A stretch of 64,000 bases of DNA from Bacteroides fragilis NCTC 9343 (GTDB lineage: Bacteria; Bacteroidota; Bacteroidia; Bacteroidales; Bacteroidaceae): assembly GCF_000025985.1 (NCBI RefSeq), contig NC_003228.3, forward strand, positions 4,526,001 to 4,590,000, read 5' to 3'. Numbering within the stretch: the first letter of the stretch is position 1; every line of letters begins with the position of its first letter. Shown here piece by piece: positions 4,067 to 38,234 of this stretch. Under the pieces are notes generated by a model. That model was not told the DNA's origin, searched no databases, and was given only the letters and a program-made list of their open reading frames with translations. Made by a program: the position numbers and the translations under genes.

Positions 4067-4085
4067 TTATGCTTTGAAACCAAGT
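4058..4085. other. Left attachment junction (attL)
   Basis: Paralog homology ends at about 4066. ACCAAAATTT at 4058-4067 and ACCAAGT at 4079-4085 resemble ACCAAGTTCC at 38225-38234 at the other junction. A short imperfect core like this would be compatible with the mismatch-tolerant exchange known for CTnDOT-type integrases. Which bases form the crossover core cannot be settled from this sequence. Confidence 0.55.
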
Positions 4086-4181
4086 GTTTTTAAAAGATGT
4101 GCAAGGATAATGCAACTACGCTAAAAATCAAATGGTTATAAAACATATTTTTAGCAGCGAGGCAAAAGGAAAGCAAAAAAA

Positions 4182-4234
4182 AGCAGATTTGGAAAGGAGT
4201 TAGGTTACCAAATCGTAACTCCGCCAAATCTGCT
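4182..4234. repeat. Nested inverted repeat at the island's left end
   Basis: AGCAGATTTGG at 4182-4192 pairs exactly with CCAAATCTGCT at 4224-4234. Inside it GGAGTTA at 4196-4202 pairs exactly with TAACTCC at 4216-4222. It lies between the attachment junction and the integrase, so it could be a terminator shielding int from outside transcription, or an integrase or excisionase binding structure. Confidence 0.6.
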
Positions 4235-4293
4235 ATAAAAAGAAGCGTAATATATTGTATTTCAGTCTATTGCTTGTTTTTGCATAATATCAG

Positions 4294-4339
4294 ATAACTC
4301 AACAGAAAGTAAATTTGTAACTAAAAAAAGTTGAGTTAT
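4294..4339 (+). promoter_or_regulatory. Promoter -7 element and inverted repeat overlapping the int start codon
   Basis: TAAATTTG at 4310-4317 fits the Bacteroidetes -7 consensus TAnnTTTG, 20 bp before the integrase ATG; no TTTG is seen at the usual -33 spacing. ATAACTCAAC at 4294-4303 is the exact reverse complement of GTTGAGTTAT at 4330-4339, which includes part of the ATG. The arms could be an operator around the promoter. They cannot both be in an mRNA that starts just after the -7 box, so DNA binding is the likelier role. Confidence 0.5.
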
Positions 4340-5567
4340 GCGAAGTACATTCAAAGTATTGTTCTACACAAAGAACCAGTCTGTAAAAAATGGTAAGGCC
4401 CCGATTATGGGCCGTATTACAGTCAATGGAACCCAAGCGGGTTTCAGCAGTAAAAGAACAGTGTCCCTTTCCTTATGGGATGTAAAAGCCAACCGTGCGA
4501 AAGGCAAGTCCGAGGAAGCACGCACGCTGAATCAAGAACTTGACAACATCAAGGCGCAGATAACAAAGCACTATCAGTACATTTGCGACCATGACAGTTT
4601 TGTTACGGCCAAGAAAGTATATAACCGCTATGCAGGTTTCTCAGAGGAATGCCATACTCTTATGGTGCTCTTCAGAGAACAGATTGAATCGTATAAAGAA
4701 AAGATAGGCAAAGGAAAGGCGGAAAGCACCTACCGTGGATTGGTTGCCGACTACAAAAGTCTTTTGCTTTTCATGAAAACCCAAAAGAACATTGAGGATA
4801 TAGCTATTGACGAGCTTGAAAAGTCGTTCATTGAGGATTATTACACATGGATGCTCGGCACGGCAGGCAATGCGAATGCCACCGCTTTCAACCGTGTCAA
4901 TACCATGAAATGGCTGATGTACATCGCACAGGAAAAGGGTTGGTTGAGAGTTCATCCTTTCACATCCTTCGAATGCAAGCCGGAATACAAGAAAAGATCT
5001 TTTCTTACTGAAGAGGAATTACAGAGAATCATCCACGTGGATCTGAAATACAAACGCCAGCGTGCCATGCGGGACATGTTTCTCTTCATGTGCTTCACCG
5101 GTCTTGCATATGCCGACCTCAGAGCCATTACTTACGATAACATCCATACCGATTCCGACGGAGGCACATGGTTGATGGGCAACCGTATAAAAACCGGAGT
5201 GGCCTATGTCGTGAAGTTATTACCCATAGCTATTGAACTTATTGAGAAATACAGAGGTGTGGACGAGAAGAAGGATTCCCCCGATTGTGTTTTCCCCGTA
5301 GGTGAATACAACACGATGTTCCTCAGCCTCAGAATCATCGGCAAGAAGTGCGATTGCCATACCGAAGTCACCCCGCATATCGGACGTCATACATTCGCAG
5401 TTCTGGCCATTCTCAAAGGGATGCCGTTGGAAACCCTGCAAAAGGTATTAGGGCATAACTCCATCCTTTCCACGCAGGTGTATGCCGAGCTTATCAATCC
5501 AAAAGTGGGCGAAGATACCGACAAACTTTGCGAGAAGATAGGCCATGTTTATAAACTGGCCGTCTAA
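4338..5567 (+). CDS. int: Tyrosine recombinase / integrase of the island
   Basis: 409 aa, normal length for Bacteroides conjugative-transposon integrases. The N-terminal arm-binding part (about residues 1-100) is followed by a SAM-like core-binding domain (about 105-215) and the catalytic domain. Catalytic residues are visible: Arg in CFTGLAYADLRAI, His and Arg in HIGRHTF, then GHNSILSTQVY with the second active-site His and the Tyr nucleophile. It should catalyse integration and excision at the flanking att sites. It points into the island from 270 bp inside the left junction. The gene is intact, unlike several other mobility genes here. Confidence 0.93.
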   Translation: MRSTFKVLFYTKNQSVKNGKAPIMGRITVNGTQAGFSSKRTVSLSLWDVKANRAKGKSEEARTLNQELDNIKAQITKHYQYICDHDSFVTAKKVYNRYAGFSEECHTLMVLFREQIESYKEKIGKGKAESTYRGLVADYKSLLLFMKTQKNIEDIAIDELEKSFIEDYYTWMLGTAGNANATAFNRVNTMKWLMYIAQEKGWLRVHPFTSFECKPEYKKRSFLTEEELQRIIHVDLKYKRQRAMRDMFLFMCFTGLAYADLRAITYDNIHTDSDGGTWLMGNRIKTGVAYVVKLLPIAIELIEKYRGVDEKKDSPDCVFPVGEYNTMFLSLRIIGKKCDCHTEVTPHIGRHTFAVLAILKGMPLETLQKVLGHNSILSTQVYAELINPKVGEDTDKLCEKIGHVYKLAV

Positions 5568-5575
5568 GACCGACC

Positions 5576-5621
5576 AAAAGGAATGCCCCTTCAGCCGGCA
5601 GGCCGGAGGGACATTCCTTTT
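5576..5621. terminator. Bidirectional terminator between int and the HTH gene
   Basis: AAAAGGAATG from 5576 pairs with CATTCCTTTT ending at 5621, extended by a GC-rich stem (CCGGAGGG side) and followed by TCTTTTTC. It lies between the convergent int (+) and HTH gene (-), ending 11 bp before the latter's stop. Confidence 0.75.
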
Positions 5622-5631
5622 GTCTTTTTCT

Positions 5632-5934
5632 TTATTTCCTGAACCTTCGGAAATCCCGGTAGTTCTTTTTTAACACCTCATACAGTCCGCTTTCGGGATA
5701 AAGAATCTTTCCACCGATGGTAGTATAGGACACCATGTTCTCATCACGCAAGGTTTGCAGTGTCCGCCGTGAGATGTGCAGTCTCTCGCATACGTCATCT
5801 CCAGTCAGGTAATGCTCATCCGCAATCGTGGGACGTATCCTTGCCATGGCTTCCTCAGCCGCCTTACCCGCTCTCCTTATCCATCCAGTCAATTCCTTGA
5901 ACTCTTCCGAATCCTTTGTGATAATGTCTGCCAT
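5632..5934 (-). CDS. Helix-turn-helix excisionase-like protein
   Basis: 100 aa. Residues 41-95 (YLTGDDVCERLHISRRTLQTLRDE, read as two adjacent pieces, then TIGGKILYP) form a MerR/Xis-type winged HTH typical of small DNA-binding proteins beside Bacteroides integrases. Such proteins bend DNA at att sites and set the direction of recombination or act as regulators. The start at 5934 lies 3 bp after the stop of the second HTH reading frame, so the two were co-transcribed. Confidence 0.8.
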   Translation of the reverse strand: MADIITKDSEEFKELTGWIRRAGKAAEEAMARIRPTIADEHYLTGDDVCERLHISRRTLQTLRDENMVSYTTIGGKILYPESGLYEVLKKNYRDFRRFRK

Positions 5935-6417: not shown

Positions 6418-7533
6418 TTATATTCTCAGCCCTTTATTCTTCCGCTCTACTATAACATTTTCTATTTTTCCCTCTTTCATTTCCGTATTCTGACGCATAT
6501 TTGGAAAATGCTCATTCAGCAAATCGCCTGCCAATCTTTTGGCTTTCTCCTGCATTTCGTCATGTACATTCAATCTGTCCGGTCCTAACAGTTTTTTTTC
6601 AATCTCTTCAAATTTGTCGTAAAAGCTGAACTCATCCGGATATTCATCGACCAGCCCGTCCTCCGGGTATCCTTGTTCCCGGATGAAAAGCAAGGTCATC
6701 CGGTCATAATTATCCGGACTTCGTGGCAATCCCAATCCTTCCCCTATTTCAGTCAGATTGAAGTAATTTTCCCATGTAGGCGCAAGGTCAAAAATCTTAC
6801 TTTCCACTACATTCTTCAGAACAGATCTGTCCTGATACGCGCACCGTTTCATTGTTTCCTCATCTACCCAGTCTCCCCGCTCATTTTTACAGAGGTTTAC
6901 CTTTCCTTCCATTAAGGAAGGCCATCCGCTCAGATCATGAACAGCCAGAGATTTTAAAGGAAAATCAAGTTCAAAGAAACTGTTCTCCACATATTTATAC
7001 ATATAACTGTTGAATTGCCATTCTCCATTTGTATTGTCGTCAAAGAGAAGTACACCCTTATCCGTTTCAACGGCAGAGTAATAATGGTTCCCGCGTTTCA
7101 GGTTATCCAGCATTTTCTCCACCATTTTAGGTGAGGATTGTATTTCCTCCCACATACCGGGTGTCAGTATCCGTTTAAAATGCTCATCTTTTGACAACGG
7201 GTCTATATCTTTTCACAGGCAATACACCACTTCCGATACACGCAGGTAACTTTGCAATCCGATTCCCTGCCCATCCATTGCTTTTTCCAATGTTTTCAAA
7301 TAGTTACTGTTATTTCTCTTCCGCAAAGGAGGGACCATTGCCAGGTCAGGCACATCATAGTATAAAACGCCTGTTGTCGGTATCTCTTTTCCTCTCAGAG
7401 CCTTTTCCACATCTTCCTGCATGAAATCCAAAAAGCCTTCTTTGCCCTTGCCTTTCATACTGATGTGTATCGGATTGAAATGTCCGTCCACTGTGACATA
7501 CACACTGCCACTCTTGTTCTCTTCTTTTTCCAT
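6418..7533 (-). pseudogene. Unrecognised paralog-family gene A, interrupted by in-frame TGA
   Basis: The first part (7533-7213, 106 aa) begins MEKEENKSGSVYVTVDG and contains GKEIPTTGVLYYDVPD. A TGA at 7213-7215 follows VVYCL, and the same frame stays open to 6418 (about 260 aa) with ETDKGVLLFDDN and YDRMTLLFIREQGYPEDG. The second part has no ATG for 13 codons after its TTG, so two separate genes are unlikely. The one-piece copy B at 7654-8445 aligns across the junction. No domain or function is recognised; these genes sit in the integrase/excision end of the element. Confidence 0.6.
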
Positions 7534-7653
7534 ATATCAAAACTAAATTTTCATTCCACGCCTTTCCCTTTTCATGGGAACTTTCACCGACATGTTCGGA
7601 CCGGAGAAACGGGTATTGTCAGGTCGCGCCACCAGTTGTGACATGATCCGTTC

Positions 7654-8445
7654 CTATTCCTTCGCCAGTGGGACCTTCACCAAAGGCAGATTTCTCAACC
7701 GGTTGAAGTTTCTTAATGTGGGTGCCATATCCAACCGTTTTATACAAATCCCGTAATTTAATATCTCCGGCGAGGCTACCTGCCAGTCACCCATTGTACC
7801 CCGGTATCTCGCATCCAACGGTGCTACTTCATAAAATCCCAGTTCCTTCGGTTTCCCTTTTCCCTCAAAGAACTTTTCAGTTATTCCGTCCAATAATTTG
7901 GCCAGTTCCTTATCACCTGTTTCTGTCTTATCAAACAGCAATACCTTTTGTCCGTATTCCACTGCCGTACAAGTAGGGAATACAGCCAATCCGTTTCTTA
8001 TCACATGGCCGTCCGTTCCGAAACGGTGTGCCAGCCGTTGGTAGTCCTCATTCTCTACCAGTGCCGTATGTGCTGCCGAGACGGACAGTTGCCTGACCCC
8101 CCTTTCCTCGCAGAATGCCGCATCCCGTAGTCTCACCACCCCCGAAGGATGAATCTTCTCCTGTTCCAATACCGGAGTGAGCCGTTCCAGATAGTCCCTG
8201 TTGTCCGTTCCGAGGATAGTGGGAATCATGGACTTGTCCCTGAAATCGAAACGGAACATTCAATGGTCGGGGATAAACTCCCTGCCAGTGGCATGAAAGG
8301 TTACATTATTGCTGATATAGCGTGCGAACCCTTCTTCACCTTGTCCCCGCATACTTAGATATACGGGACGATAGAAAGCATCCAGCGTCATGTACAGGCT
8401 GCCGTTTTCCACACAGTCTGTATTCATTCTCTTTTCCATAAGCAT
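7654..8445 (-). pseudogene. Unrecognised paralog-family gene B, interrupted by in-frame TGA
   Basis: The frame starts at 8445 (MLMEKRMNTDC), contains NGSLYMTLDAFYRPVYLSMR parallel to gene A's SGSVYVTVDGHFNPIHISMK, and meets a TGA at 8260-8262 after REFIPDH. An ATG follows directly in the same frame and the ORF runs 201 aa to 7654. Aligning IPDH-stop-MFRFD with IPTTGVLYYD of gene A places the stop where A has Gly. It could be a nonsense mutation, a translationally coupled pair (TGAATG) or readthrough. KVLLFDKTETG matches the GVLLFDD motif of A and C. Confidence 0.6.
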
Positions 8446-8446
8446 A

Positions 8447-9352
8447 TTATATAATCAGTTGTTTTTTTTCTTTCTTCTGCGGAACAACGGAAGAGGCATG
8501 CTTCGCAGCCTGACGCCCCGTTTTTTCCGGTTCCGGCTCTTTGGACTGTTGAGACGAACACTTTTCCGGAGTTTTTGCCCTTTGTGATGTCCGGTTCGCT
8601 TTTCCGCCCAGCCTGAACTCCCCGTCTGTAATGTGGAACTCCGATTGTAGGATGTCCCTCGCCATTGTTTTGGCTTCCATCTGCAAGGCCGCATAGCCGA
8701 AGTCGTGCGCAGAGAGCGGGGCTTCTCGTCTCGCCTTCATACTGTCCCCCAGCTTCTCCGCCAGTTCCTTGAACTCATACTGATAGCTGAACGGATGGAA
8801 ATGGTCCGCTTCCATAAGGCCGGCATATCCGTTCTCCGAGATATACAGCAGTGCCGCAACATCATAATTACGGGGTGAGATACCCAGGCCGAAGTCCTTT
8901 GTCAAACGGTCAAAGTTATTGAAGTCGGGACGTAAGTCATATTTGCCGGTGCAGACGGCACCTACCAGCATCTCCTTTCCTGCCATCTTTTCGGGCGTGA
9001 AGCTGCATACCGATTTTCTTAATTGTATATCATCCCTGCGCAAGTCTGCTTTTGAGAGTTTGTCGATACAATTATCGGCCAGTTCAACCATCTGCCGCAT
9101 GGGAATCTCTATTTCATACAGTTTAAGTGTTTCCACTTTTTTACTGAAGTTGAAAAAACTGTCTGCCAGATGTTGTAAGTAAGTGGTACGTGCTTTCATT
9201 CCCTTTACACTGTCCGAGAAGAGAAGTACACCCTCATCCGTTGCCACAGCAGACATGCGCTGATTCTCACTGTCTGCCGAAACGGGCAAGTTACCCGTTT
9301 CGGCTGTCCGGTGATGTAACCAACGGTCTGCCCAATCTTTCAATAGTCCCAT
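8447..9352 (-). CDS. Unrecognised paralog-family gene C
   Basis: 301 aa, intact, first of three tandem paralogs; its stop is one base upstream of gene B. It contains ATDEGVLLFSDSVKG and YDVAALLYISENGYAGLMEA, which align with genes A (ETDKGVLLFDDN, YDRMTLLFIREQGYPEDG) and B. It lacks the N-terminal SVYVTVDG part of A and B. The last 60 residues are basic and polar (KTPEKCSSQQ, VVPQKKEKKQLII), suggesting a disordered, possibly nucleic-acid-binding tail. No signal peptide or membrane segment. Function unknown. Confidence 0.7.
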   Translation of the reverse strand: MGLLKDWADRWLHHRTAETGNLPVSADSENQRMSAVATDEGVLLFSDSVKGMKARTTYLQHLADSFFNFSKKVETLKLYEIEIPMRQMVELADNCIDKLSKADLRRDDIQLRKSVCSFTPEKMAGKEMLVGAVCTGKYDLRPDFNNFDRLTKDFGLGISPRNYDVAALLYISENGYAGLMEADHFHPFSYQYEFKELAEKLGDSMKARREAPLSAHDFGYAALQMEAKTMARDILQSEFHITDGEFRLGGKANRTSQRAKTPEKCSSQQSKEPEPEKTGRQAAKHASSVVPQKKEKKQLII

Positions 9353-9463: not shown

Positions 9464-10096
9464 TTAAATTAACCGTTTCTCCAGCATCCGGTTATAACTT
9501 ACACGCAAGGAATCAATAAAAGGAGTAGTGTCCGTACAACGGTCAAACACTTTTCCCCGTTTGGTATATAGTGCATTTATTTTTAGATGAAACATATCCT
9601 CAAAAGCTCGAATTACACTTATCACAGTTAGTTTATCTCCATTTCTCGAACTTATTGCATCGGCTGCCATCAACGCAGCCACCAGTTCAATCAAATCACT
9701 GTCTGTTCCATTCCAAGTTAGCATGACAACTGATTTATTTTCCTCATCTTTTATTATTTCAGATTTCAGTTCCGGTACAATATTTCCATATTTAAGCAGC
9801 TCTTTAACCATTTCTATTTCTGCATTGAGAAGAGATAATGCCTTACCAATAAATACATCATACAAAACATGCCTTTTTCCCAACATTTGCTCCGATGCAA
9901 TTTGCATATAATCCAATTCTATTTTGGTATAATTCAAGCGTCGCAATTTTACTATCTGATTCTCATCCTGCGGGAGCCCTGCAAGCAGGGTTACAAAATC
10001 ATCATAAGCGGCAGGCAATTCTTCTGCCACCTGTACCATACCATCCATATAGGAGGTGAATAAAGTAAAAAGAAGCGCATTCGTTAATGTTTTCAT
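9464..10096 (-). CDS. RteC-like regulator of excision/transfer
   Basis: 210 aa. The C-terminal half (DLIELVAALMAADAI, a linker, then FEDMFHLKINALYTKRGK) has the RteC-family pattern; the N-terminal 90 residues are helical. In CTnDOT, RteC activates the excision operon and is itself switched on by the response regulator RteB. Here an RteB-like regulator lies directly upstream on the same strand and a sigma-54-type promoter lies 63 bp before the ATG. The assignment is by pattern and context. Confidence 0.7.
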   Translation of the reverse strand: MKTLTNALLFTLFTSYMDGMVQVAEELPAAYDDFVTLLAGLPQDENQIVKLRRLNYTKIELDYMQIASEQMLGKRHVLYDVFIGKALSLLNAEIEMVKELLKYGNIVPELKSEIIKDEENKSVVMLTWNGTDSDLIELVAALMAADAISSRNGDKLTVISVIRAFEDMFHLKINALYTKRGKVFDRCTDTTPFIDSLRVSYNRMLEKRLI

Positions 10097-10260: not shown

Positions 10261-10289
10261 AAAATTCGTCCGAAAATCGGACGAATTTT
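10261..10289 (-). terminator. Terminator at the end of the response regulator gene
   Basis: AAAATTCGTCCGA at 10261-10273 is the exact reverse complement of TCGGACGAATTTT at 10277-10289, leaving a 3-base loop. The stem begins within the response regulator's stop codon and separates it from the RteC-like transcription unit. Confidence 0.8.
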
Positions 10290-11574
10290 ATATTAGGCGA
10301 TATTTTTTTAATTTAAGATAAAGTGTACTTCGACTTATTCCCAATAATTGTGCTGTCGCTGTACGATCATTATCTGTAGCATTCAATGCTTTTATAATAT
10401 TATTCCGCTCTACTCGTTCATCTTTCAATGTATATTCTTTGGGGTGCTTATTGGGAAGAAGTTCTATATCCTCCATCGTTATCCAGTCGTCTTGTGCCAA
10501 TAAAGTTGCTCGTTTCACGACCATCCGTATTTCACGTATATTCCCCGGCCATGAATATGATTTGAATTTTTTCTGTGTTTCTCGGTCAAAACCTTTTACC
10601 TCTTTATTTAATTCACGATTAGCTATATTCAACATAAATTCAGCTAATGGGATAATGTCTTCCGGACATTCAGCTAAAAGAGGTACTTGCAGTGGAAATT
10701 CATTTATGCGATGAAATAAATCTTCTCTGAATCGCCCTTCCATTATGGCTTTCTCCAAATCTTCATTCGTAGCAGCTATCAGTCGTATATCTACTTCTAT
10801 CTCTTTCCAACTACCTATAGGACGAAAATGCTTTTCTTGTAATGCACGTAATAATAACATTTGTACGTGCATATTCAGATTTCCTATTTCATCCAAAAAC
10901 AATGTTCCATGATTAGCCCGAGCAAACATGCCTTCTCTGTCTTCCACCGCTCCCGTAAATGCACCTTTTACATAACCAAATAATTCAGAAGCTGCAAGTT
11001 CCTTTGGTAAAGTACCACAATCCACAACAACGAATGGAGCATTCGCACGTCCGCTTAATGCATGAATTTGCGATGCAACCCACTCCTTTCCTGTACCAGA
11101 TGCACCTCTTATGAGCACAGTCATATCCGAAGGAGCTACAAGGCGAACATAGTGTTGTAGTTTTAAAGACAATGGACTTTGTCCAATATAGAATGCCTGT
11201 TTTGTTTTAGAGTCTTTTCTGTTCCGCTCTAATACTTCTTGGATAATACTAAGTGCTTTTTCTGTTTGAATCGGCTTTGGCAAATAATCTTCAGCTCCCT
11301 TTTTGATAGCACTTACGGCTCCCGGTATATCTGCATATCCGGTCATAATAAGAAATGGAATTTGATAACCTTCTGCCTTTATCCATTCTAGTAATTCTAT
11401 ACCATTACTTTCTTTAAGTCTAAAATCCGATAGTATCAAATCCACTTCATTATGATACAAAAACAACTTTGCTTTATCTACAGACAATACATAACGGGCA
11501 TCTATACTATGTTTTTTCAACCAATTCGCAGTTGTATATGCATATGTCCGATCATCTTCTACAATTAATACCAT
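10288..11574 (-). CDS. Sigma-54-dependent response regulator (NtrC/RteB-like)
   Basis: 428 aa. The receiver domain (1-120) has its phospho-Asp in VDLILSDFRLKESNG. The AAA+ domain (about 140-370) has Walker A RGASGTGKEWVA, the sigma-54 contact loop GYVKGAFTGA and the PGNIREI motif. A Fis-type HTH ends the protein (TATAQLLGISRSTLYLKLKK). It should activate sigma-54 promoters when phosphorylated. It starts 38 bp after the membrane fusion protein gene, so it may be part of the efflux operon; the RteC-like gene next to it points to RteB. No sensor kinase lies within the island. Confidence 0.9.
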   Translation of the reverse strand: MVLIVEDDRTYAYTTANWLKKHSIDARYVLSVDKAKLFLYHNEVDLILSDFRLKESNGIELLEWIKAEGYQIPFLIMTGYADIPGAVSAIKKGAEDYLPKPIQTEKALSIIQEVLERNRKDSKTKQAFYIGQSPLSLKLQHYVRLVAPSDMTVLIRGASGTGKEWVASQIHALSGRANAPFVVVDCGTLPKELAASELFGYVKGAFTGAVEDREGMFARANHGTLFLDEIGNLNMHVQMLLLRALQEKHFRPIGSWKEIEVDIRLIAATNEDLEKAIMEGRFREDLFHRINEFPLQVPLLAECPEDIIPLAEFMLNIANRELNKEVKGFDRETQKKFKSYSWPGNIREIRMVVKRATLLAQDDWITMEDIELLPNKHPKEYTLKDERVERNNIIKALNATDNDRTATAQLLGISRSTLYLKLKKYRLI

Positions 11575-21499: not shown

Positions 21500-21511
21500 T
21501 TGTTCTATCTT

Positions 21512-25520: not shown

Positions 25521-25525
25521 AAGGC

Positions 25526-26422: not shown

Positions 26423-26439
26423 ATCTTCTAAAATTCTTA

Positions 26440-28991: not shown

Positions 28992-29565
28992 AGATGGGCT
29001 ATTCTTTTGGCTGTTACAGAATTTAGGAATAAATTTATAAGATTGTATGCTGTAGCTTTTGTATAATTACCGATTTCTTCAAAGTTAAGTTTATATAGAC
29101 ATTATAGTAAGGCGAAATAATTACTTTGAATTTTCTGTGGAGGAAATAATACAATTGTCGGTGACAATTTAATCTACAAAAAAATGTATTTATTCACGAA
29201 AAATAATACATAAACAGTTTATCATAAACTATGATTGTTATTTATAATTGGTTATGAAGCAGTCCTCTCGAATCTTGCTATATTTCCTTATCTCTTATTT
29301 CCTCAAATAACAATTTCCTCATTTTTATTACCCCGTCATGACTTCCCCTTGCATGGTTCAGGGTGCGAAGCTACGGCCGGGGCCCCTAAAAATCTGCAAG
29401 GCCGCTTCGCGCCCTACGGGTTTTGGCGAAAATTTTTCAATCCGTCCAGCCGGGCGATTGAAAATTTTTCACCAAAAGCCTTGCACATTTTCTCCCCGTC
29501 CGTATCTGCCCCCTGAAACGAGCAAGGTGAAGCCACCGACAAGGCATAAAAAAAAAGTCAATGTT
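28992..29565. other. Divergent intergenic region between copA and the ICE right module
   Basis: The first 300 bp are AT-rich with no gene. From about 29330 the sequence is GC-richer, resembling leader sequence in front of Bacteroides conjugative-transposon gene blocks, with the long palindrome described at 29421-29477. Reading frames crossing it lack plausible protein character. Confidence 0.45.
29421..29477. repeat. Long inverted repeat, 22-bp arms
   Basis: The arm at 29421-29442 starts TTTTGGCGAAAATTTTTC and the arm at 29456-29477 ends with the near-exact complement ACCAAAA; 20 of 22 positions pair around a 13-base GC-rich loop (CGTCCAGCCGGGC). It lies 90 bp before the next gene, so it could be a transcription attenuator or a protein-binding site. 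Confidence 0.65.
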
Positions 29566-29847
29566 ATGAAAAAGAGAACAGAAATACAGCAAGATTTGAA
29601 ACGAGGCTTCGGCTCCGCTCCAACCGGCATAAAAATTTTGGTGAAGTGGTCGCTGGTCGGTTTCATGGTGTATGTGGCGGTGCGTTTCGTGTGTGCCTTC
29701 GTCGGTGGTGTGGTGACGGGGTTAGGCGGTATTCTGCCCACGTTGGTAGTTTTGGCGGTGGTGTTTTTCCTCATCCGTTCAGTATGGCGCATCCTTTTCC
29801 TTTCCGTTCTTCTCCTTTTCATCATCCTTTTTTGCGTGATATTCTGA
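29566..29847 (+). CDS. Small membrane protein of the conjugative-element module
   Basis: 93 aa from the ATG at 29566 (MKKRTEIQQDLKRGFGSAPT). The charged N-terminus of about 25 residues is followed by two hydrophobic stretches, LVGFMVYVAVRFVCAFVGGV and LVVLAVVFFLIRSVW, and a hydrophobic end. Similar small proteins are common in Bacteroides ICEs just before the next two genes. No function is known. Confidence 0.6.
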   Translation: MKKRTEIQQDLKRGFGSAPTGIKILVKWSLVGFMVYVAVRFVCAFVGGVVTGLGGILPTLVVLAVVFFLIRSVWRILFLSVLLLFIILFCVIF

Positions 29848-29878
29848 ACCGAAATATTAATCATTAAAACAATTCATT

Positions 29879-30892
29879 ATGAACAAAGTACATTTATTGG
29901 GAGCGAACAGAAGCTATGACAGAGACGAACAGACCGTTTCAGTCAATCAAGTGGTAATGCTGGAAGGTTACAGCTACGACAGCTATGTAGTGTATGAAGT
30001 AAACCGCAGCCAGTGGGGAATAACCTATCATCTTATCAATTTGCGGACACACGAGTTTCATACTTCCGACCTTATCCGACCCTTGTCGGAAAAATTCGGG
30101 ATAGGCATGTATTATGACGATGCGAACCCCAAGTTTTTGGATCCGTTGGAAACAGCCGCCCTGCTTTCCAAAGCGAGGGAGAAGAAAACGGAGGATGACA
30201 GAAAAGCGGAGGAAGAACGGCAGAGGAACAAACACACCGCAAAAATCGGAGCGGAACGCTTGCGCCCCCTTATCCCATCGGATGCGAAAGCCGTCATTAT
30301 CGGTGAACTACGGGTGAGCGAGTGTGACAGCTATACGGACTACTACGACTACCGTATAGAAAGAACCGTGATTTTAGGCTTTTCCACCCATACACGAAAC
30401 CTCTTTTCCGAAATGCGCAAATATGCCGCCAATTTTGAGGGAACGGCTTATCTGGCAGAGAACGACAAGGAATACGAACACCGTGAAAATTACAGCATGG
30501 GGGACGGCATGTATTTGGGGCGTAACAAGTACAGCGGTTGGACGATTTCAAAAGAGCGGATTTACGACCTTGAAAAGTTCATCGAACGATACGCCCACAC
30601 CGCAGGGGACGAAGCCAACATTTGTCTGAAAGCACCGCAAGGGGAAACTGAAGCGCAGCAGCCGACAACATCCGCAGACCTCTCAACGCTCAATCTTGAA
30701 ATTGTGGAATACAGTGAAAAGGCGATAGCCGTATTCGGGGACACCAAGCCGATAAAGGACGTTTTGAAAGGCTTGAACGGTCTGTTCCGTGCGAACCTTA
30801 CCTATAACGGTGAAAGGCGTGCAGGATGGATATACAGCAGGAAGCAGGAACAGAAAGTACGTGAGACACTCGCAACGTATGCCAACGTATAG
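29879..30892 (+). CDS. Conjugative-element protein of unknown function
   Basis: 337 aa, starting MNKVHLLGANRSYDRDEQTV, 31 bp after the small membrane protein gene. N-terminal domain of about 85 residues (VVYEVNRSQWGITYHLINLR), a charged coiled-coil linker (about 100-125, rich in E, K, R), then a C-terminal domain with ERTVILGFSTHTRNLFSEM and DTKPIKDVLKGLNGLFRANL. The end resembles the short segments repeated in ICE-encoded large polypeptides (loops with NGRF-type motif). It lies directly before the ParB-like gene. No enzyme motif is seen. Confidence 0.65.
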   Translation: MNKVHLLGANRSYDRDEQTVSVNQVVMLEGYSYDSYVVYEVNRSQWGITYHLINLRTHEFHTSDLIRPLSEKFGIGMYYDDANPKFLDPLETAALLSKAREKKTEDDRKAEEERQRNKHTAKIGAERLRPLIPSDAKAVIIGELRVSECDSYTDYYDYRIERTVILGFSTHTRNLFSEMRKYAANFEGTAYLAENDKEYEHRENYSMGDGMYLGRNKYSGWTISKERIYDLEKFIERYAHTAGDEANICLKAPQGETEAQQPTTSADLSTLNLEIVEYSEKAIAVFGDTKPIKDVLKGLNGLFRANLTYNGERRAGWIYSRKQEQKVRETLATYANV

Positions 30893-30974
30893 AGACGTAA
30901 AAGGCAGGGCGGAACAAACCGCCCTACCTATCGAAAGTAATTCAATCAATATCAACCCATTAAAATTTATAGTT

Positions 30975-32879
30975 ATGAAAACGAACAAGAATGCACGGAA
31001 GAACAACAAAGTTCAGAAATCAGAGAAAGAAACGGCAGTAAAGGTAACCGCTTTGGCAATCATCCCCAAGCCAATGACGTTAATCTGTGGGCAGGACATA
31101 CCCACAACTGCCGGAGTGACGGAAGCACCCGAAACGGCAACCGTTCCCACCATTGTGGAAGAAACACCGCAGCAAGCCACGCCCAAGACACCGCTTGCAA
31201 CGGCAACGGCTGAGACAGACCTTGACATCACAGCCGTACACCCAAGTGCGGACAACCACCGCAAGACCTTCAATGACACATCCTTGCAGGAACTTGCCGA
31301 CAGCATTCGGGAAGTGGGAGTCTTGCAGGCCATTGCCGTACGTCCACGCACGGCAGGCGGTTACGAAATCATCTACGGCGAACGCCGCTACCGTGCCTCA
31401 CTGCTTGCAGGAGCAAAGACGATAAAGGCAACCATATACGACCATATAACGGACGATGAAGCGGAGGACATGTCACTAAGCGAGAACTTACAGCGTGAGC
31501 AGGTATGCCCCACCGAGGAAGCGAGAGCCTTCAAACGCCTGCTTGAAAAAGGCAGGTACGACATGTACTCACTCGTCAGCCGCTTCGGACGGAGCGAGAA
31601 GTATATCTATACACGTTTGAAACTGAACGAATTGTATGCGCCTATCGGTGAACTGCTGGATAACGGGACAATCACCGTCAGTGTGGCCGAGGAAATAAGC
31701 ACCTATGAAACCAATATCCAAAAGGACGTGTACGAGAGTCACCTGAAGCAGGGCAATAGGGACGATTGGAGCGGTTACACGCTCAATCTGTTCAAGAAAC
31801 ATTTTGAGAAATATTACACAACCGACCTTGAGCAATACAAGTTCGACAAGACGGAATGCAAGGCGTGTGCACACAACGCAGCCAACTACAACCTTTTTGC
31901 CGAACATAACGGGTGCGGACATTGTACCAACCGCAAATGTCTGGAAGCCAAGAACTCTGCGCATGTGGCAAAGGAAACGGAGAAACTGTTGAAATCCGAT
32001 CCGAAGCTGGTGATCGCCCGACCTTATTACGGAAGCCGTAACGACACGGCACTCCAAAAATTGGACAAGAAAGGGCATGAAATCAAAGAACTCGATTACA
32101 ACGTATCGGCAAGGGAATTTCCCAAAGCACCCGAAGCACCGCAAAAGGAGCAGTTCTCCGAACCGACAGAGTATGAACAAGCGGTACAGACCTTTGAACA
32201 GAAAAACGAGGAATACGCCCGAAAGGTGGAAGAACTCAACCGTAAAAAGGAAGAGGGCAAGATAAAGACGTACGTCAAAGTGGGACAGACAGAACCCGAA
32301 CTTTGCTATGTGGAGATAAACAGGAAGGAAATCGCCCCCGTTACCATTGAGACATTGCAGGAGCGGGACAAGCGTTTCAAACAACTCTCCACCGAGAAGA
32401 TTGTTACCGATACGAAAAAGATAGTCCGTGAGAATGACTATCCCGAAAGTCCGTTTACGCAATACGAGGACGGAATGCTTTATTTCATCATGCTGACCAA
32501 ACTGCAAAGGAAGCATTATCCGCTTTGCGGCATCAAAGACCAACCGATGCCGTTGGACGAGAAACAGCGGATGAAGATTGTAGCCAAACTGACGGACGCA
32601 CAAAGGACGGTCATCAAACGCGATTTCATCATCCACTCCCTCTGCGAGGGCGGCTACGGAGACAATAACGCATCCAAGCTCTTGAGGGACTTCGCAAACA
32701 TGCACTTCCCCGACCAGTACGGACTTGCCAAAGCCACCCACGAGGAAGAATATCAGAAAAGGCACGAACGTTTGGGAGAGAGGATAAAGGAGATGAAGAA
32801 AGCGGAAAAAGCGACAGCGAAAAAGGATGAAAAACAAAAAGTTTCCCCTGCATTGCCCCATGATGATAAGGCCGCTTGA
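30975..32879 (+). CDS. ParB/RepB/Spo0J-family protein, long form
   Basis: 634 aa from the ATG at 30975 (MKTNKNARKNNKVQ); a longer frame would overlap the upstream gene. A low-complexity Thr/Ala/Pro-rich stretch (about 35-85) is followed by the ParB N-terminal domain: LQELADSIREVGVLQAIAVR, GERRYRASLLAGAKT and SENLQREQVCPTEEARAF. An HTH follows at SLVSRFGRSEKYIYTRLKLN. The long C-terminal part has a Cys cluster (CKACAHNA, CGHCTNRKC) and ends in a Lys/Glu-rich tail. It may help to maintain or transfer the element. The same class occurs in many Bacteroides ICEs. Confidence 0.85.
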   Translation: MKTNKNARKNNKVQKSEKETAVKVTALAIIPKPMTLICGQDIPTTAGVTEAPETATVPTIVEETPQQATPKTPLATATAETDLDITAVHPSADNHRKTFNDTSLQELADSIREVGVLQAIAVRPRTAGGYEIIYGERRYRASLLAGAKTIKATIYDHITDDEAEDMSLSENLQREQVCPTEEARAFKRLLEKGRYDMYSLVSRFGRSEKYIYTRLKLNELYAPIGELLDNGTITVSVAEEISTYETNIQKDVYESHLKQGNRDDWSGYTLNLFKKHFEKYYTTDLEQYKFDKTECKACAHNAANYNLFAEHNGCGHCTNRKCLEAKNSAHVAKETEKLLKSDPKLVIARPYYGSRNDTALQKLDKKGHEIKELDYNVSAREFPKAPEAPQKEQFSEPTEYEQAVQTFEQKNEEYARKVEELNRKKEEGKIKTYVKVGQTEPELCYVEINRKEIAPVTIETLQERDKRFKQLSTEKIVTDTKKIVRENDYPESPFTQYEDGMLYFIMLTKLQRKHYPLCGIKDQPMPLDEKQRMKIVAKLTDAQRTVIKRDFIIHSLCEGGYGDNNASKLLRDFANMHFPDQYGLAKATHEEEYQKRHERLGERIKEMKKAEKATAKKDEKQKVSPALPHDDKAA

Positions 32880-33529: not shown

Positions 33530-34059
33530 CCTGCCACACCCCACACCTGACAAGTGACCGTATTAAAAAGTCGGGCCGTCCTTATAGGATTGCCCTACTT
33601 TTAATATTCTTACGTAGTTGAATAGAATATCAAGAAAGTTATAAGATTAGAAATAGTTGAATGATAACATATAAGAGCAGCCTTTAGCTGTTTAATCAGG
33701 CAGACAGGTCTCTGTCCACTTATCTGTTTTGTTTGATAGCTATTTAGCTATAAAGCTATCTGTCTATTCAGCTATATAGCTATTTAGCTATCCGGTTACC
33801 TATGTAAGCATCCGCTTAATAATCCGTTCTCCTATTCATCTATCCGAACATCTGTTTGCCTATACATCATTATATATGTATGGCTGTATAAGCGGATAGG
33901 CAGCCTTATGAACGCTTGCCTAAAAACATACTTAATCGAATAGCTGTTCAAAAAGAAAACTACCCGGACATTTATTCGGATAACTGTTTTTTCATCTATC
34001 CGAATAAGTAGCCGAATGACTATCCGGCTGCAAATAAACCTCAAGAGAGCTATTCATAA
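33530..34059. other. Non-coding region with repeats before the mobilisation genes
   Basis: 530 bp without a credible gene. It contains AGCTAT repeats (33738-33791) and degenerate TATCTG/TATCCG motifs up to about 34030. Position between ICE accessory genes and mob genes suggests a cis-acting maintenance or transfer region. Confidence 0.5.
33738..33791. repeat. Iteron-like AGCTAT repeat array with 8-bp period
   Basis: Six exact copies of AGCTAT start at 33738, 33746, 33754, 33770, 33778 and 33786, giving spacings of 8, 8, 16, 8 and 8 bp. Where AT precedes AGCTAT the unit is the palindrome ATAGCTAT. The register is kept across the one gap, so binding of a multimeric protein is plausible. Confidence 0.7.
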
Positions 34060-34344: not shown

Positions 34345-34779
34345 ATGAAGAAAAGAATGCTTGTCAGAAACGGAGCGGGGCACAAAGTGCTCGCTGACCC
34401 ACGGGTGCATCGCCACTCTGTGCGGTTGAGCAGTGAGGAAAATGAAAAATTCCTCACGATGTTTGAACAATCGGGTATGAAGAACAAGGCCGAATTTATC
34501 TTCGCCCGCATCTTCGGTTGAGAGTTCAAGGTGGTGAAGATTGACAAGGAAGCGCAGGAGTATTACGCCCAGCTTACCGCTTTCTATCAGCAATTCCGCA
34601 GGATAGGAAATAACTATAACCAATGTGTAAAGGCCATCCACACCATTTACGGAGAGAAGAAATCGCTTGCGTTTCTCTACAAGCTTGCCGAAGAAACCCG
34701 TAAACTGGAAGAAGTATGCAAGCTGGTCATCGAACTTACAAAGCGATACGAAAAGAATTATCTCACGAAAAAAGAGTAA
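34345..34779 (+). pseudogene. mobA: MobA-like relaxosome accessory gene with in-frame TGA
   Basis: The frame begins MKKRMLVRNGAGHKVLADPR at 34345 and has the ribbon-helix-helix-like SVRLSSEENEKFLTMFEQSG and AEFIFARIFG. A TGA at 34519-34521 interrupts it, and the frame then continues EFKVVKIDKEAQEYYAQL, FRRIGNNYNQCVKAI and LAEETRKLEEVCKLV to 34779. Both parts are typical of Bacteroides MobA (about 140 aa), which recruits the relaxase to oriT. The stop is probably a point mutation such as CGA to TGA. The RHH half alone could still be made. Confidence 0.75.
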
Positions 34780-34783: not shown

Positions 34784-34979
34784 ATGATTCCGAATATCAG
34801 TTCCGGCAGTTCCTTCTATGAGTAGCTTCCTCGATGAAGATAGTAACGATATGACGGAGCAACAGATACAGGTCAACTATCGGCAAATCAAGCAGGATAT
34901 CGTTGAACTGGTGAAAAGGAAGTTGATTCGGATTGAGAATAATACGAAGTTCAAGCATTTGTCTGGAGGAGAAGGGTAG
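34784..34979 (+). pseudogene. Fused remnants: mobB (relaxase) start joined to a mobC-like end
   Basis: Five bases after mobA an ATG at 34784 opens MIPNISSGSSFYE and then a TAG (34823-34825), typical of the first 13 residues of Bacteroides mob relaxases. Overlapping in another frame, 34818-34979 reads SFLDEDSNDMTEQQ, then QVNYRQIKQDIVELVKRKLI to a TAG. This resembles the C-terminal tail of the MobC/TraG-type coupling protein. The order mobA-mobB-mobC fits an internal deletion of several kb. The mobC assignment is by remembered pattern only. Confidence 0.5.
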
Positions 34980-35274: not shown

Positions 35275-35775
35275 TTATATTGTATTATCATAAAGTGCAA
35301 AAATTCTTTTCAATATCATTAACAAAGAAAAGAATATGTGGATAGATAGAAAATAAATCAAGGATGATAAAATATTAGTAATACACCCCAGCTCCTTTGC
35401 ATAAGTAGAGATTAGTAGTAATAATAATTCTATAATACAAATAAGTATTATGTATGAAACATTATAAAAACTCTCCTTCTTTGTTGCAAGAAGCAGTTCT
35501 TTCTTTTCTTTATCTATGTTTGCTGGCGGAACATATGAAATCAATAGCATTAGTAGATTTAGAAACAATCCTATAAATATAGATAAAATAACACCAAGTA
35601 AATTTTCTAATCCAGACGTGATTTCAATTTTTAGACTTAGAAATACTGAAATAGCACAAGGGATAATATAGAAAGTCCATAAATCAGCCATATTCAACTT
35701 CTTTGAATTTCTCAAAGTTGAAATATGACTTTTTATAATTCTAATAATATTTATCTTACTTGATATAAATTTCAT
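35275..35775 (-). CDS. Small multi-pass membrane protein in an unrecognised three-ORF set
   Basis: 166 aa, MKFISSKINIIRIIKSHIST. Four hydrophobic segments are visible, for example LWTFYIIPCAISVFLSL, LGVILSIFIGLFLNLLMLLI, YIILICIIELLLLLIS and LIYFLSIHIFFSLLMIL, with a charged loop (NIDKEKKELLLATKKE) between the second and third. Its ATG directly follows the stop of the upstream ORF (35776), indicating co-translation. It has the look of a membrane effector or anchor paired with soluble partners, but no family is recognised. Confidence 0.7.
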   Translation of the reverse strand: MKFISSKINIIRIIKSHISTLRNSKKLNMADLWTFYIIPCAISVFLSLKIEITSGLENLLGVILSIFIGLFLNLLMLLISYVPPANIDKEKKELLLATKKESFYNVSYIILICIIELLLLLISTYAKELGCITNILSSLIYFLSIHIFFSLLMILKRIFALYDNTI

Positions 35776-36195
35776 TTACTTATAATTTACAATATCTTTA
35801 AACAGTTTAAGTGATTCTTCTCTCATAGAATTAAATTCAGCATATCCATCTTCTGTTTTTGAAACTGTTATCAATTGGGATATATTGGGCGTTTTCAGTT
35901 TTGAAATAGAAATAGGACGCTTATTACCATTTAAAATAGAATCAATTACAATTTCAGAATCCTCATTTAGTCCAAATGGCTCCAATTCTTCTATAGTTTT
36001 AAAAGATGGATGTCCATCTGCAGCTATAGATTTTATTTTATCAACTAGTACTCCTGCTATATTTTTCTTCTTAGCAGTTATTTTTACCTCAATAGTACAT
36101 TCTTCATCTTCATCAATCTTAATATTTGTATATTTGATCCGCAATGTCAGCAGGAACACTTTTTCTCTTAATCTTAATTCGAGAATATTCTCCAT
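35776..36195 (-). CDS. Unrecognised ORF overlapping the upstream ORF (or its frameshifted continuation)
   Basis: 139 aa if started at the ATG at 36195 (MENILELRLREKVFLLT). The region after the overlap is well formed: DEDEECTIEVKITAKKKNIA, HPSFKTIEELEPFGLNEDSE and REESLKLFKDIVNYK. It overlaps the end of the upstream ORF by 77 bp in the +1 frame, an unusual length for coupled bacterial genes. One long gene of about 340 codons with a one-base error, mutation or programmed shift in 36119-36195 is equally possible. No family recognised. Confidence 0.6.
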   Translation of the reverse strand: MENILELRLREKVFLLTLRIKYTNIKIDEDEECTIEVKITAKKKNIAGVLVDKIKSIAADGHPSFKTIEELEPFGLNEDSEIVIDSILNGNKRPISISKLKTPNISQLITVSKTEDGYAEFNSMREESLKLFKDIVNYK

Positions 36196-36754
36196 CTTTT
36201 ATATAATCAATTAATTTGTCATGACCTAAAACAATTTCACTTTTCATTGTAAGTTTGTCGGTCCCCAAATGAGCAATAATACTTGACCTAATTGCATATA
36301 CTATATCAGAAAAAATATTTTCTGATGCATCATTTTCTGTAATCATGAATAATGAATTCAATTTCCATGAAAAAATTAGCAAAAAGAATACTGGGGACAA
36401 TACTGCCTCAGAGGGTTTTATTTCACCTACTAATTTATTCTCATTGCTATCTAAAATGATTTTGCGTTTTCCAGTAATGCCTTTTTCTACAATGCCACAA
36501 ATACATTGATCCAACTCTGAACCTTTGTACAATGATTCTATTTTATTATTGTTTTCTTTTGTTTTAATCATCAATTGAATCTTTTCCTCTTTGTCTACAT
36601 TCGTGTACTTATGTACATCTAACAAATATTGAGGTAGAGTTGTTAGAATGTGAGTGTACAACTCTTTAGTTATATTCATAGGTTCTGATTTCTTTCCCTG
36701 TTTTACTTTCCCTACAAGATTGACTATTTTAACTTTCTTATCTATTTCTGCCAT
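36119..36754 (-). CDS. Unrecognised soluble protein, first gene of three-ORF set
   Basis: 211 aa, MAEIDKKVKIVNLVGKVKQG. It is rich in Lys, Ile and Glu, with a hydrophobic stretch PVFFLLIFSWKLNSLFMI in the middle and ends ADIADQIYKY. No catalytic motif is evident. A good Bacteroidetes promoter lies 28-58 bp upstream. With the two downstream ORFs it forms an AT-rich unit at the right end of the island, a place where mobile elements often carry defence or toxin-like genes, but this is only context. Confidence 0.65.
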   Translation of the reverse strand: MAEIDKKVKIVNLVGKVKQGKKSEPMNITKELYTHILTTLPQYLLDVHKYTNVDKEEKIQLMIKTKENNNKIESLYKGSELDQCICGIVEKGITGKRKIILDSNENKLVGEIKPSEAVLSPVFFLLIFSWKLNSLFMITENDASENIFSDIVYAIRSSIIAHLGTDKLTMKSEIVLGHDKLIDYIKDGEYSRIKIKRKSVPADIADQIYKY

Positions 36755-36782: not shown

Positions 36783-36812
36783 CAAAATTATAAAAAAAGA
36801 ATAAAGCACAAA
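36783..36812 (-). promoter_or_regulatory. Promoter of the three-ORF unit
   Basis: On the minus strand TTTG (36809-36812) is followed after 18 bp by TAATTTTG (36783-36790), near-consensus for the primary Bacteroidetes promoter. The -7 box ends 29 bp before the ATG at 36754. Confidence 0.65.
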
Positions 36813-36984
36813 AGAAAATAACAAAATATCAATTTAAATTAATGACTTAAACCAACTTGTGCCATTTCCCACCATCTCCCACCAACCATTCCTCACCGCC
36901 ATAAAAACGTAATATCCTGCATTTTTTATGCCATATCTTCTCAGCCACAGTCTAAAGTTTTCCCGTACAAATCAATTATTCTAC

Positions 36985-37405
36985 AATGTATGGCTAAAAA
37001 AGAAGCAAGAACAAGAAGAGGTGAAGGACGAGTACATAATGGCGGTCCTTGACAAGAGAACGAACAAATGGCACTTTTCTTCTCCAATTTCAAAAAACAG
37101 TATGACAATCCCTACAGTTTCAGTTTTTCTTTGTACCGTTGGTATCGTTGGAAAAGACACTTAACGCAGTGGTGCAAATCCCCAAAGTGGAAGATCCCGG
37201 CATGGATGGTAAAAAATTGGTAGAGAACAGCGAACTGAACGATGAAGAGGGCATTGCCAAACTCGCTCAACGTTACAAATTCGACGAATATCAATTATCG
37301 TAGAAGGACCTGAACACCGTTGGCATTGACAAACTGCTGCTATTTGAAAACCATATGATAAGCGAACTGCTGAAAGATACAATCACCTCTACTTTTTTAT
37401 TGTAG
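36985..37405 (+). pseudogene. Decayed DUF3945/DUF4099-like conjugative-element gene
   Basis: Pieces in different frames match large ICE proteins of this class: KKKQEQEEVKDEYIMAVLDK near 36990-37060, FFSNFKKQYDNPYSF near 37077-37110, then LEKTLNAVVQIPKVEDPG and LVENSELNDEEGIAKLAQRY at about 37150-37275, then a stop, then VGIDKLLLFENHMISELL to about 37380. Frameshifts, deletions and a stop separate them. The family is usually hundreds of residues long, so only the first part remains. Confidence 0.7.
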
Positions 37406-38069
37406 CCTCTCTTAATAAATATCTGATAAATACATTCTAATAAATCACCTTGTAAATGTTGACTTTATAAAAAATATCGCTTTAGCAAATTTAAATGTCA
37501 TTTTTTTGATTTGCTGATGTTTGTTGCTATTTTTATACACTGAAACTAACCATTAAAAACATAAAAAAACAGTATAAAATTAACGTTATGACTGCTGAAA
37601 CATAATCTAGGGGAGGGGTGAAAAATCCGTTTTCTATTTGTAAAATCAAAATATAACTGTATCTTGACATCTGAAATCAATGATGGCACATGATTAATGG
37701 TGTAAATCAAACATGTGATAAATCATGATTTTTTAATGCAAAGCATTAGAAGACCAACACTCTAAGTCCTGAAAATCAAAGCATTAGATTTATAAAAGAA
37801 GTTTGGGTTCGAATCCCTGAAGGTGTCGTCCACCCGATGTAGTATAATGACCTTATTTTTATTGTTCATGACGCACATTACGGAGATATTATAAAGCCAT
37901 TGGCTACTCAACCGTTGAACAACCGCCACAAAAAGACAGAAAATGTCAAATTGAGACAAAAATAGCCAGAGATACTCTTCACGACTATTCTATAATAAAC
38001 AAATAAGTTATACCTTATTTTTTTAAGGTGTTAATAATCAGATTTGTATAAAAATGGATGTCTGTATAT
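37406..38069. other. AT-rich non-coding right end of the island
   Basis: No credible gene. It holds a 12-bp direct repeat CAAAGCATTAGA (37739-37750 and 37777-37788) and a short stretch near 37807 resembling a tRNA T-arm (GGGTTCGAATCCC). Confidence 0.5.
37739..37788 (+). repeat. 12-bp direct repeat CAAAGCATTAGA
   Basis: Exact copies start at 37739 and 37777, 38 bp apart, about 450 bp inside the right junction. Integrase arm-type sites of CTnDOT-class elements are short direct repeats in such positions, so this is a candidate. Confidence 0.5.
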
Positions 38070-38100
38070 TTTGTTATATTCCAAATATTGCCTACCTTTG
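38070..38100 (+). promoter_or_regulatory. Consensus Bacteroidetes promoter pointing to the right island end
   Basis: TTTG at 38070-38073, a 19-bp spacer, then TACCTTTG at 38093-38100, an exact match to TTTG-N19-TAnnTTTG. It points to attR. In an excised circle it would point towards int. The only short ORF after it begins ATGAGTTATTTG and has 10 codons. Confidence 0.7.
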
Positions 38101-38169
38101 TATATGAGTTATTTGAAACTATGCAAAGCTGTGTAACCGAAAGCAAAACTTTTGCTACTAAATCGTTAC

Positions 38170-38195
38170 CTACATTTTTTAATAATGTAGTTGTC
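38170..38195 (+). terminator. Short hairpin after the right-end promoter
   Basis: CTACATT at 38170-38176 pairs with AATGTAG at 38184-38190, with TTGTCTTTTG following. It could end a roughly 80-nt transcript from the 38100 promoter, just inside attR. Confidence 0.4.
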
Positions 38196-38224
38196 TTTTG
38201 ATTTACAACAAGTTACAACAAAGT

Positions 38225-38234
38225 ACCAAGTTCC
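38225..38234. other. Right attachment junction (attR)
   Basis: ACCAAGTTCC lies where lipoprotein homology resumes (about 38233). It resembles ACCAAAATTT at 4058-4067 and shares ACCAAGT exactly with 4079-4085. Confidence 0.55.

Follow-up and report, generated by a model that had tools for sequence, protein, structure and literature searches.

A predicted transfer-defective CTnDOT-type island in a Bacteroides fragilis lipoprotein gene, and UGA codons within transfer genes of its relatives

The stretch of DNA considered here, termed "the window", comprises 64,000 nucleotides of Bacteroides fragilis NCTC 9343 (RefSeq assembly GCF_000025985.1, contig NC_003228.3, positions 4,526,001 to 4,590,000) and harbours an island of 34,166 bp, which splits a lipoprotein gene. 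The island is very likely a CTnDOT-type relative without transfer genes. Its own tyrosine recombinase probably placed it at a degenerate palindrome in the lipoprotein gene, and its cargo is predicted to confer copper tolerance. Genomes and loci used for comparison are denoted by G and L numbers, respectively (G000 is the genome of the window), and the genome sample contains one genome per species.

The island and the gene that it splits

At this locus one lipoprotein gene is split by one element, the ends of which are well defined. The features concerned are the following (window coordinates):

3723-4069, minus strand: 3' part of a DUF5128 beta-propeller lipoprotein gene, which is an unbroken open reading frame (ORF) of 414 amino acids at loci L006, L007 and L008
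4064-4080: attL, ATTTTA-TGCTT-TGAAAC (target half, 5-bp coupling sequence, element half)
4070-38235 (or 4069-38234): the whole island, 34,166 bp
38230-38246: attR, GTTCCA-AAAAA-AGAAAC (element half, target spacer, target half)
38235-39133, minus strand: 5' part (about 300 codons) of the same DUF5128 beta-propeller lipoprotein gene

The ORF map and the sequence bear out what a preliminary description of this DNA had claimed, namely that both parts of the gene flank the island in the correct order and on the correct strand. The check that went with this claim, a search for the unbroken gene elsewhere, was run with window 38000-39200 as a query against 149 genomes of the genus and yielded matches in 14 of them. 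In G143, G123 and G014 the match begins at approximately window 38235, the adjoining DNA is the other half of the gene, and the gene forms a single unbroken reading frame in all three cases (loci L006, L007 and L008, respectively). At L006 the left homology (97%) stops at window 4069 and the right homology (96%) begins at 38235, both at L006 base 1501. This empty site places the joints at 4069/4070 and 38234/38235, with a one-base ambiguity (an A). The ends given earlier, 4067 and 38232, were thus right as to the presence of element ends there, yet two to three bases off the exact positions.

The empty site reads ATTTTA-AAAAA-AGAAAC, and its comparison with both joints reveals no true direct repeat at the island ends. 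One joint retains the spacer of the target, while the other carries a foreign spacer, as expected for a recombinase that tolerates mismatched coupling sequences. An alignment of element ends yields a common core, GTTTC-N7-GAAAC, with a 5-bp centre that is not the same at the left and right joints of the window island.

Backbone and lost transfer genes

Between its ends the island consists of a left block, a cargo region, a ParB block and a right part with remnants of transfer genes. The backbone features are:

4338-5567, plus strand: tyrosine recombinase (Arm-DNA-bind_5, SAM-like and Phage_integrase domains), IntCTnDOT-like
5632-5934, minus strand: HTH_17 protein, excisionase-like by inference, with copies 78-86% identical in four relatives
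6418-9352, minus strand: three DUF6047 proteins and one small ORF, backbone
9464-10096, minus strand: RteC-family regulator, 58-61% identical to relatives
10288-11574, minus strand: sigma-54 response regulator, RteB-like; the sensor kinase adjoining it in G119 is absent here
29338-32879, plus strand: two ORFs and a ParB-like protein, conserved backbone, 78-87% identical to three relatives
33694-33736: deletion joint, at which three relatives have approximately 15-17 kb (TraN, TraM, TraJ and TraG by profile in G119)
34345-34779, plus strand: mobA-like gene, 85% identical to G057, with an in-frame TGA at 34519-34521
34784-34970, plus strand: the first approximately 12 codons of mobB (relaxase) joined to approximately 54 codons of the end of mobC (coupling protein)
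35275-36754, minus strand: three small ORFs without a match in the three full relatives compared
36997-37390, plus strand: remnant of the DUF4099/DUF3945 gene of the relatives
37844-38234: conserved right end, 79-84% identical to five relatives up to approximately 38182

The recombinase is assigned to its class from domains and motif context (the first catalytic arginine is absent). At E<=1e-120, 16 of 158 genus genomes contain relatives of it, the window's own genome included; at E<=1e-185 there are 3 among 399 family genomes, and these belong to the same genus. Three full-length relatives, G057 (about 67 kb), G085 (about 73 kb) and G119 (about 63 kb), share synteny with the island over the left and ParB blocks and at the right end; identities amount to 78-92% for the integrase (87-92%), the HTH_17 protein and the ParB block, and to 53-74% for the DUF6047 proteins, RteC and the RteB-like regulator. 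Between these shared blocks the relatives carry different cargo and conjugation genes. In G119, profiles identify TraN, TraM, TraJ, TraG, a MobA/VirD2-type relaxase and a coupling protein and, next to the RteB-like gene, a hybrid kinase; the Tra and Mob genes of the other relatives were identified by similarity. The TraG gene of G119 (L073:746-4299) is interrupted by a group II intron.

The window island retains only mobA and fragments of the conjugation genes, the block being gone at 33694/33736. The window contains neither an RteA-type kinase nor a Tra block, relaxase or coupling protein, whereas the RteB-like regulator and RteC are present. Based on its gene content, the island is classed as a predicted transfer-defective derivative of a CTnDOT-type integrative conjugative element, not a working member, because the conjugation block is gone, mobB and mobC are fused, the DUF4099/DUF3945 gene is truncated and the kinase is missing. 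Since the integrase frame is open, excision would be possible in principle. The RteB-like regulator (10288-11574) is retained without its usual kinase, the place of which in G119 is here taken by the gene for a membrane-fusion protein, and it may respond to another kinase.

Among plasmid records the left block found only partial matches of 60-80% identity (27 records). The three small ORFs at 35275-36754 have no Pfam or PADLOC matches, and the first and third of them lack NCBIfam matches as well. As to defence cargo, nine window proteins gave no convincing PADLOC match, only a marginal match of MTase_II to ParB (E 0.005).

In-frame UGA codons in the transfer genes

The in-frame stop of the window mobA was at first glance a candidate for gene decay. 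This explanation was dropped, since the same TGA stands at the same place in the five relatives in which mobA was read. The transfer genes of six relatives (G057, G085, G119, G110, G091 and G086) and of the window were compared with an X written at each TGA. Seventeen queries were used, sixteen proteins of Parabacteroides distasonis and MobC of G057; three of them (a hypothetical protein, DUF3876 and TraL) had no match in the element family, and a 301-codon gene of G057 was compared within the family only.

In-frame TGA codons are present in 10 of the 15 transfer-region genes (MobA, MobB, MobC, ParA-like, TraF, TraG, TraI, TraK, TraM and the 301-codon gene) and were not found in TraE, TraJ, TraN, TraO and the DUF3408-like gene. 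The annotated homologs of P. distasonis and Bacteroides ovatus contain no in-frame UGA. Ten sites are invariant across all elements in which the gene in question was read: MobA 59 (6/6, window included), MobB 31 (6/6), MobC 45 and 95 (6/6 each), ParA-like 31 and 99 (5/5 each), position 152 of the 301-codon gene (5/5), and TraG 57, TraK 36 and TraM 287 (4/4 each). Six further sites vary, one each in MobC, the 301-codon gene, TraF and TraI and two in TraG. Each of the six is tryptophan in a sister element, and the TraI site is isoleucine in another sister. Homologs outside the family mostly have tryptophan at TraG 57, TraK 36, MobC 95 and the TraF site. In 9/10 genes, TraM being the exception, at least some elements have their first TGA no more than 60 codons from the start.

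The bases that differ among the relatives after the TGA fall mostly on the third codon position, with 178 of 226 in TraG, 80 of 121 in MobB and 59 of 91 in the ParA-like gene (after its second site); before the TGA of MobB, it is 10 of 10. These counts use rows in register, and the out-of-register rows of TraM and MobC were left out. A frame-blind scan for conserved TGA, TAG and TAA codons over whole elements was of no use, as it also counted non-coding frames.

Read together, these patterns suggest that UGA is most likely decoded as tryptophan in the transfer module, either by a host tRNA or by regulated readthrough; a restart after the UGA is a possible alternative to decoding. Several observations weigh against decoding. 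ARAGORN found no tRNA gene on the 15 element loci, nor did Rfam at gathering scores in the G057 and G119 elements, both searches covering the element sequence only. Moreover, six conserved sites (MobA, MobB, MobC 45, both ParA-like sites and TraM) face non-tryptophan residues in distant homologs, and another, partial match to MobC in G091 carries UGA at a position that is arginine in G057. The missing tRNA and the six non-tryptophan sites speak for the rival view that the UGAs are ordinary stops, in decaying genes or between two separate peptides, the second made by restart. We consider this view rather unlikely. Ordinary stops would not be expected to keep the same position in every element read or to have tryptophan as their counterpart at each variable site, and the changes beyond them mostly spare the first two codon positions in the in-register rows. 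Furthermore, the aligned frames continue past the UGA without UAA or UAG, except in the intron-split TraG of G119 and at a split in the MobB of G086.

According to a broader proposal, a second code, in which UGA would mean tryptophan, would apply to the transfer genes of the element family; conjugation would be locked until the cell decodes UGA, and the window island would be a fossil with one locked gene. We see this proposal as evenly poised between right and wrong. Among open-licence full texts, no description of the island, of its core or of UGA in transfer genes was found, and the available portions of PMC5111406 and PMC5729914 contain nothing on the island.

Cargo and copper

The cargo region lies between the RteB-like gene and the ParB block and comprises the following genes, all on the minus strand; percentages are identities to the copy or best relative in the same genome:

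11612-15854, minus strand: membrane-fusion protein and RND pump genes of a tripartite efflux system
15865-17268, minus strand: outer-membrane efflux factor, two ORFs in one frame split by TAG; the gene looks broken
17520-18083, minus strand: AraC-type regulator with an N-terminal CxxC (IKNMVCDRC), predicted copper sensor
18113-20581, minus strand: FeoAB fusion, ferrous iron transporter, second copy (72% to the core copy)
20627-21499, minus strand: PF00756 esterase (best own relative 30%)
21512-22657, minus strand: ArgD-like class III aminotransferase, second copy (70%)
22669-23862, minus strand: aspartate-type aminotransferase (AspAT), second copy (71%)
23893-24552, minus strand: HAD phosphatase (best own relative 23%)
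24648-25520, minus strand: pyridoxamine kinase PdxK, second copy (83%)
25526-26422, minus strand: DapA, 4-hydroxy-tetrahydrodipicolinate synthase, second copy (85%)
26440-28950, minus strand: Cu(I)-type P-type ATPase CopA with heavy-metal-binding domains at both ends

The best solved match of CopA is the copper ATPase 3rfu. Relatives of the AraC-type regulator occur in 49 of 157 genus genomes, the own one included, and a CopA relative lies within 1.5 kb in 22 of the 29 AraC relative loci examined; on this ground copper is the predicted signal. In the window the two genes flank seven others rather than adjoining each other. The CopA ATPase, the CxxC regulator and perhaps the RND pump would serve copper efflux, and the cargo as a whole is predicted to confer copper tolerance.

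Two features of the efflux system weigh against this assignment: multidrug models score above metal-efflux models for the RND pump, all of them below the cut-off, and the outer-membrane factor gene looks broken. The latter split is a matter separate from the UGA codons, since the codon is TAG and not TGA. A cargo devoted mainly to drug or antimetabolite efflux plus a bypass cluster, with copper as a side theme, would fit the multidrug scores of the permease and the fact that several second copies are pyridoxal phosphate (PLP) enzymes or PdxK. Yet CopA and the CxxC regulator form a common pair in the genus, dapA and feoAB do not encode PLP enzymes, and the outer-membrane factor gene looks broken; we judge such a cargo an unlikely alternative.

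Within 18113-28950, second copies of five core genes are bundled with the copper ATPase; seven genes lie between CopA and AraC, and the host counterparts of these five are scattered in the genome. FeoAB occurs in 144 of 158 genus genomes. For AspAT the figure is 367 of 399 family genomes, and none of the matches listed for it exceeds 75% identity, the island's own aside. DapA occurs at 95-99% identity in three clusters among the 120 matches listed. For one DapA match (P0002, 97%) and one esterase match (P0121, 93%) the longest contig has the same length, 77,737 bases, which points to a single additional contig that bears this cluster. Plasmid records matched the cargo only with a 79% feoAB stretch and one small match.

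The idea that the second copies are copper-hardened, i.e., poor in cysteines, was tried and set aside, as a column-wise cysteine test gave no clear support, a result that counts against a copper role of these copies. Homologs below 90% query coverage were set for exclusion for AspAT, the ArgD-like enzyme and FeoAB. By plain count, AspAT has 6 cysteines versus 8-10 in 29 homologs, the ArgD-like enzyme 5 versus 8-14 in 11 and DapA 1 versus a median of 2 in 117, while PdxK and FeoAB display no drop compared to the host copy. By column, 2 of 8 conserved cysteines are lost in AspAT and 3 of 7 in the ArgD-like enzyme, a loss shared by the host's core copy; none is lost in DapA (0/1) or FeoAB (0/4). 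The second copies are possibly spare parts for functions damaged by copper, or passengers.

Comparison with known elements

An integrative mobilizable element, which never had a mating pore and depends on helpers by design, would likewise lack mating-pore genes and retain an integrase and a mobA-like gene. A relaxase, which mobilizable elements normally keep, is missing from the island, as only the start of mobB is left, and the mobB/mobC fusion, the truncated DUF4099/DUF3945 gene and the joint at which three relatives have 15-17 kb all point to loss; a mobilizable origin is thus improbable.

CTnDOT and CTnERL resemble the island family in several respects. Shared traits include an IntCTnDOT-type recombinase without the first catalytic arginine, RteB- and RteC-like regulators, a mismatched coupling sequence at the joint in place of a true direct repeat and, in the full relatives, a TraG/J/K/M/N-type block together with mobABC. 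In contrast, the window element is devoid of RteA, Tra genes, relaxase and coupling protein, and no tet or erm gene is present among the 29 island ORFs scanned. The ends of the island show GTTTC-N7-GAAAC and not GTANNTTTGC, the core at the ends of CTnDOT. Moreover, the transfer genes of the relatives contain in-frame UGA codons, which the annotated B. ovatus and P. distasonis homologs lack.

Absence of the usual first catalytic arginine is a trait of the IntCTnDOT subgroup (PMC8138268). The CTnDOT-related heavy-metal islands of Mucilaginibacter, which stem from mine soil, are larger and have described conjugation modules, are likewise CTnDOT-like with an RteC-like gene and metal-resistance cargo (PMC6316836); unlike these, the B. 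fragilis island is reduced, and its cargo mixes a copper pump with second copies of core metabolic genes. CTn1-bt to CTn4-bt of B. thetaiotaomicron are cryptic elements helped by CTnERL and integrated by homologous recombination, with CTn4-bt apparently lacking a working integrase (PMC1976400). Similarly, the regulators or transfer proteins of another element would be the only route for the island, the integrase gene of which, however, is open while its transfer genes are missing. Recoding of stop codons in gut phages (PMC9523058) and decoding of UGA as tryptophan in bacteria (PMC13092985) provide precedents for stop codons used as sense, and for UGA as tryptophan in particular. Here, in contrast to both, the host is a Bacteroides and the codons reside in genes for conjugative transfer, mostly one or two per gene and near the start, and no tRNA gene was found on the elements. 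Finally, Tn1549-type integration involves imperfect inverted repeats around a crossover region of 5-7 nt and AT-rich, near-random targets (PMC5871717); the repeats are a common trait, whereas the family of the island shows a preference for a palindromic core.

Landing sites

GTTTC-N7-GAAAC likely represents the recognition core of the recombinase, as suggested by the end alignment. The insertion site in the lipoprotein gene is a degenerate version of this palindrome (8/10 match), and the window contains 35 positions at 8/10 and 3 at 9/10, the element's own joints counted. Of 15 integrase loci, those of nine relatives could be aligned at the left end (L029-L032, L034-L037 and L043); left out of this set were L028 and L033, which are without an end, and the more distant L038, L044 and L050. 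Left ends match the palindrome with at least 9/10 in eight of the nine relatives, half of each joint being derived from the element, and in L029, L030, L034 and L036 a further palindrome of at least 9/10 lies exactly 22 bp outward. With L022 left out, right ends attain at least 9/10 in 4 of 8 loci, and L011, L012 and L021 run on into an array. The relatives thus mostly lie at palindromes of this type, in many cases at the edge of an array. The genes flanking the relatives are diverse: a GNAT acetyltransferase and a DUF4421 protein in G057, an NAD kinase on one side and a protein without Pfam match on the other in G085, and a BNR-repeat protein on the side tested in G119.

That members of the multicopy beta-propeller lipoprotein family are the integrase's target, as the preliminary description had proposed and as the position in one member with four further members close by might suggest, is very improbable, since the flanks of the relatives are unrelated genes that have the palindrome in common, the equivalent place in the paralog scores only 7/10 versus 8/10 at the insertion site, and the G123 allele scores 4/10.

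Arrays, defined as two palindromes with 5 bp between them, were counted in nine genomes, in all of which a reversed-pattern control gave zero. There are 52 in G085, 26 in G001, 21 in G149, 4 in G057 and 1 in G092, and none in G000 (the own genome), G119, G123 and G014. Single palindromes, counted in 16 genomes and given here over the control, number 8/11 in the own genome, 112/17 in G085, 78/16 in G001, 69/20 in G149, 80/19 in G110, 72/15 in G030, 65/27 in G086, 50/22 in G127, 27/24 in G057, 24/12 in G143, 20/5 in G119, 15/17 in G043, 13/14 in G123, 11/19 in G091, 9/23 in G092 and 6/16 in G014. The left target half is a perfect GTTTC in five genomes with arrays; it is ATTTT in G000, GTTTT in G119 and G091 and CTTTC in G043, G000 and G119 being those of the four in which arrays were counted. 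Short arrays of the core are dispersed in G085, G001, G149 and G057 (e.g., L137-L147) with a 22-bp period, and single palindromes are also high in G030, G110 and G127.

Hosts with arrays would thus take insertions there, and hosts without arrays at degenerate sites such as the lipoprotein site. A number of points run counter to this rule. The core itself stems from an alignment, and the array association involves few elements, which are partly related. The left end of L043 and half of the right ends (L010, L013, L014 and L020) fall below 9/10, and the degenerate right end of L013 sits in the palindrome-rich G110 (80 versus 19 in the control). The single array of G092 is by inference the array at the element, and in G119 single palindromes likewise exceed the control (20 versus 5). 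As the own genome is without arrays and the site is only an 8/10 match, the hit in the lipoprotein gene looks incidental.

Insertion at a tRNA gene was considered and rejected, since the window contains no tRNA gene. Control by a known RNA was likewise set aside: the window has no Rfam match at gathering scores, and low-threshold Rfam scans of two right-end stretches gave only matches below these scores. By eye, a string at 37800-37840 resembles the T-arm and 3' end of a tRNA or tmRNA, but Rfam finds no tRNA match there at low threshold and ARAGORN finds none in the window; the string is perhaps a scrap of another element's attachment site.

Proposed history and implications

An ancestral conjugative element likely brought the cargo and would have integrated through its own recombinase at the degenerate GTTTC-N7-GAAAC in the lipoprotein gene, after which the conjugation block would have been lost by internal deletions. 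The present island could at most excise, and moving would need another element. In the full-length family, the production of the transfer apparatus would depend on UGA readthrough by the host.

The landing rule, a palindrome core and arrays of it where present, predicts insertion sites and explains hits in coding genes. If the proposal of a second code holds true, the genetic code itself would be the level at which a conjugative element controls its spread, as has been discussed for phages, and gene transfer in the gut would be under a translational brake. An annotation with UGA as a stop would then call such elements broken, and the question would arise of what sets UGA decoding in Bacteroides, and when.

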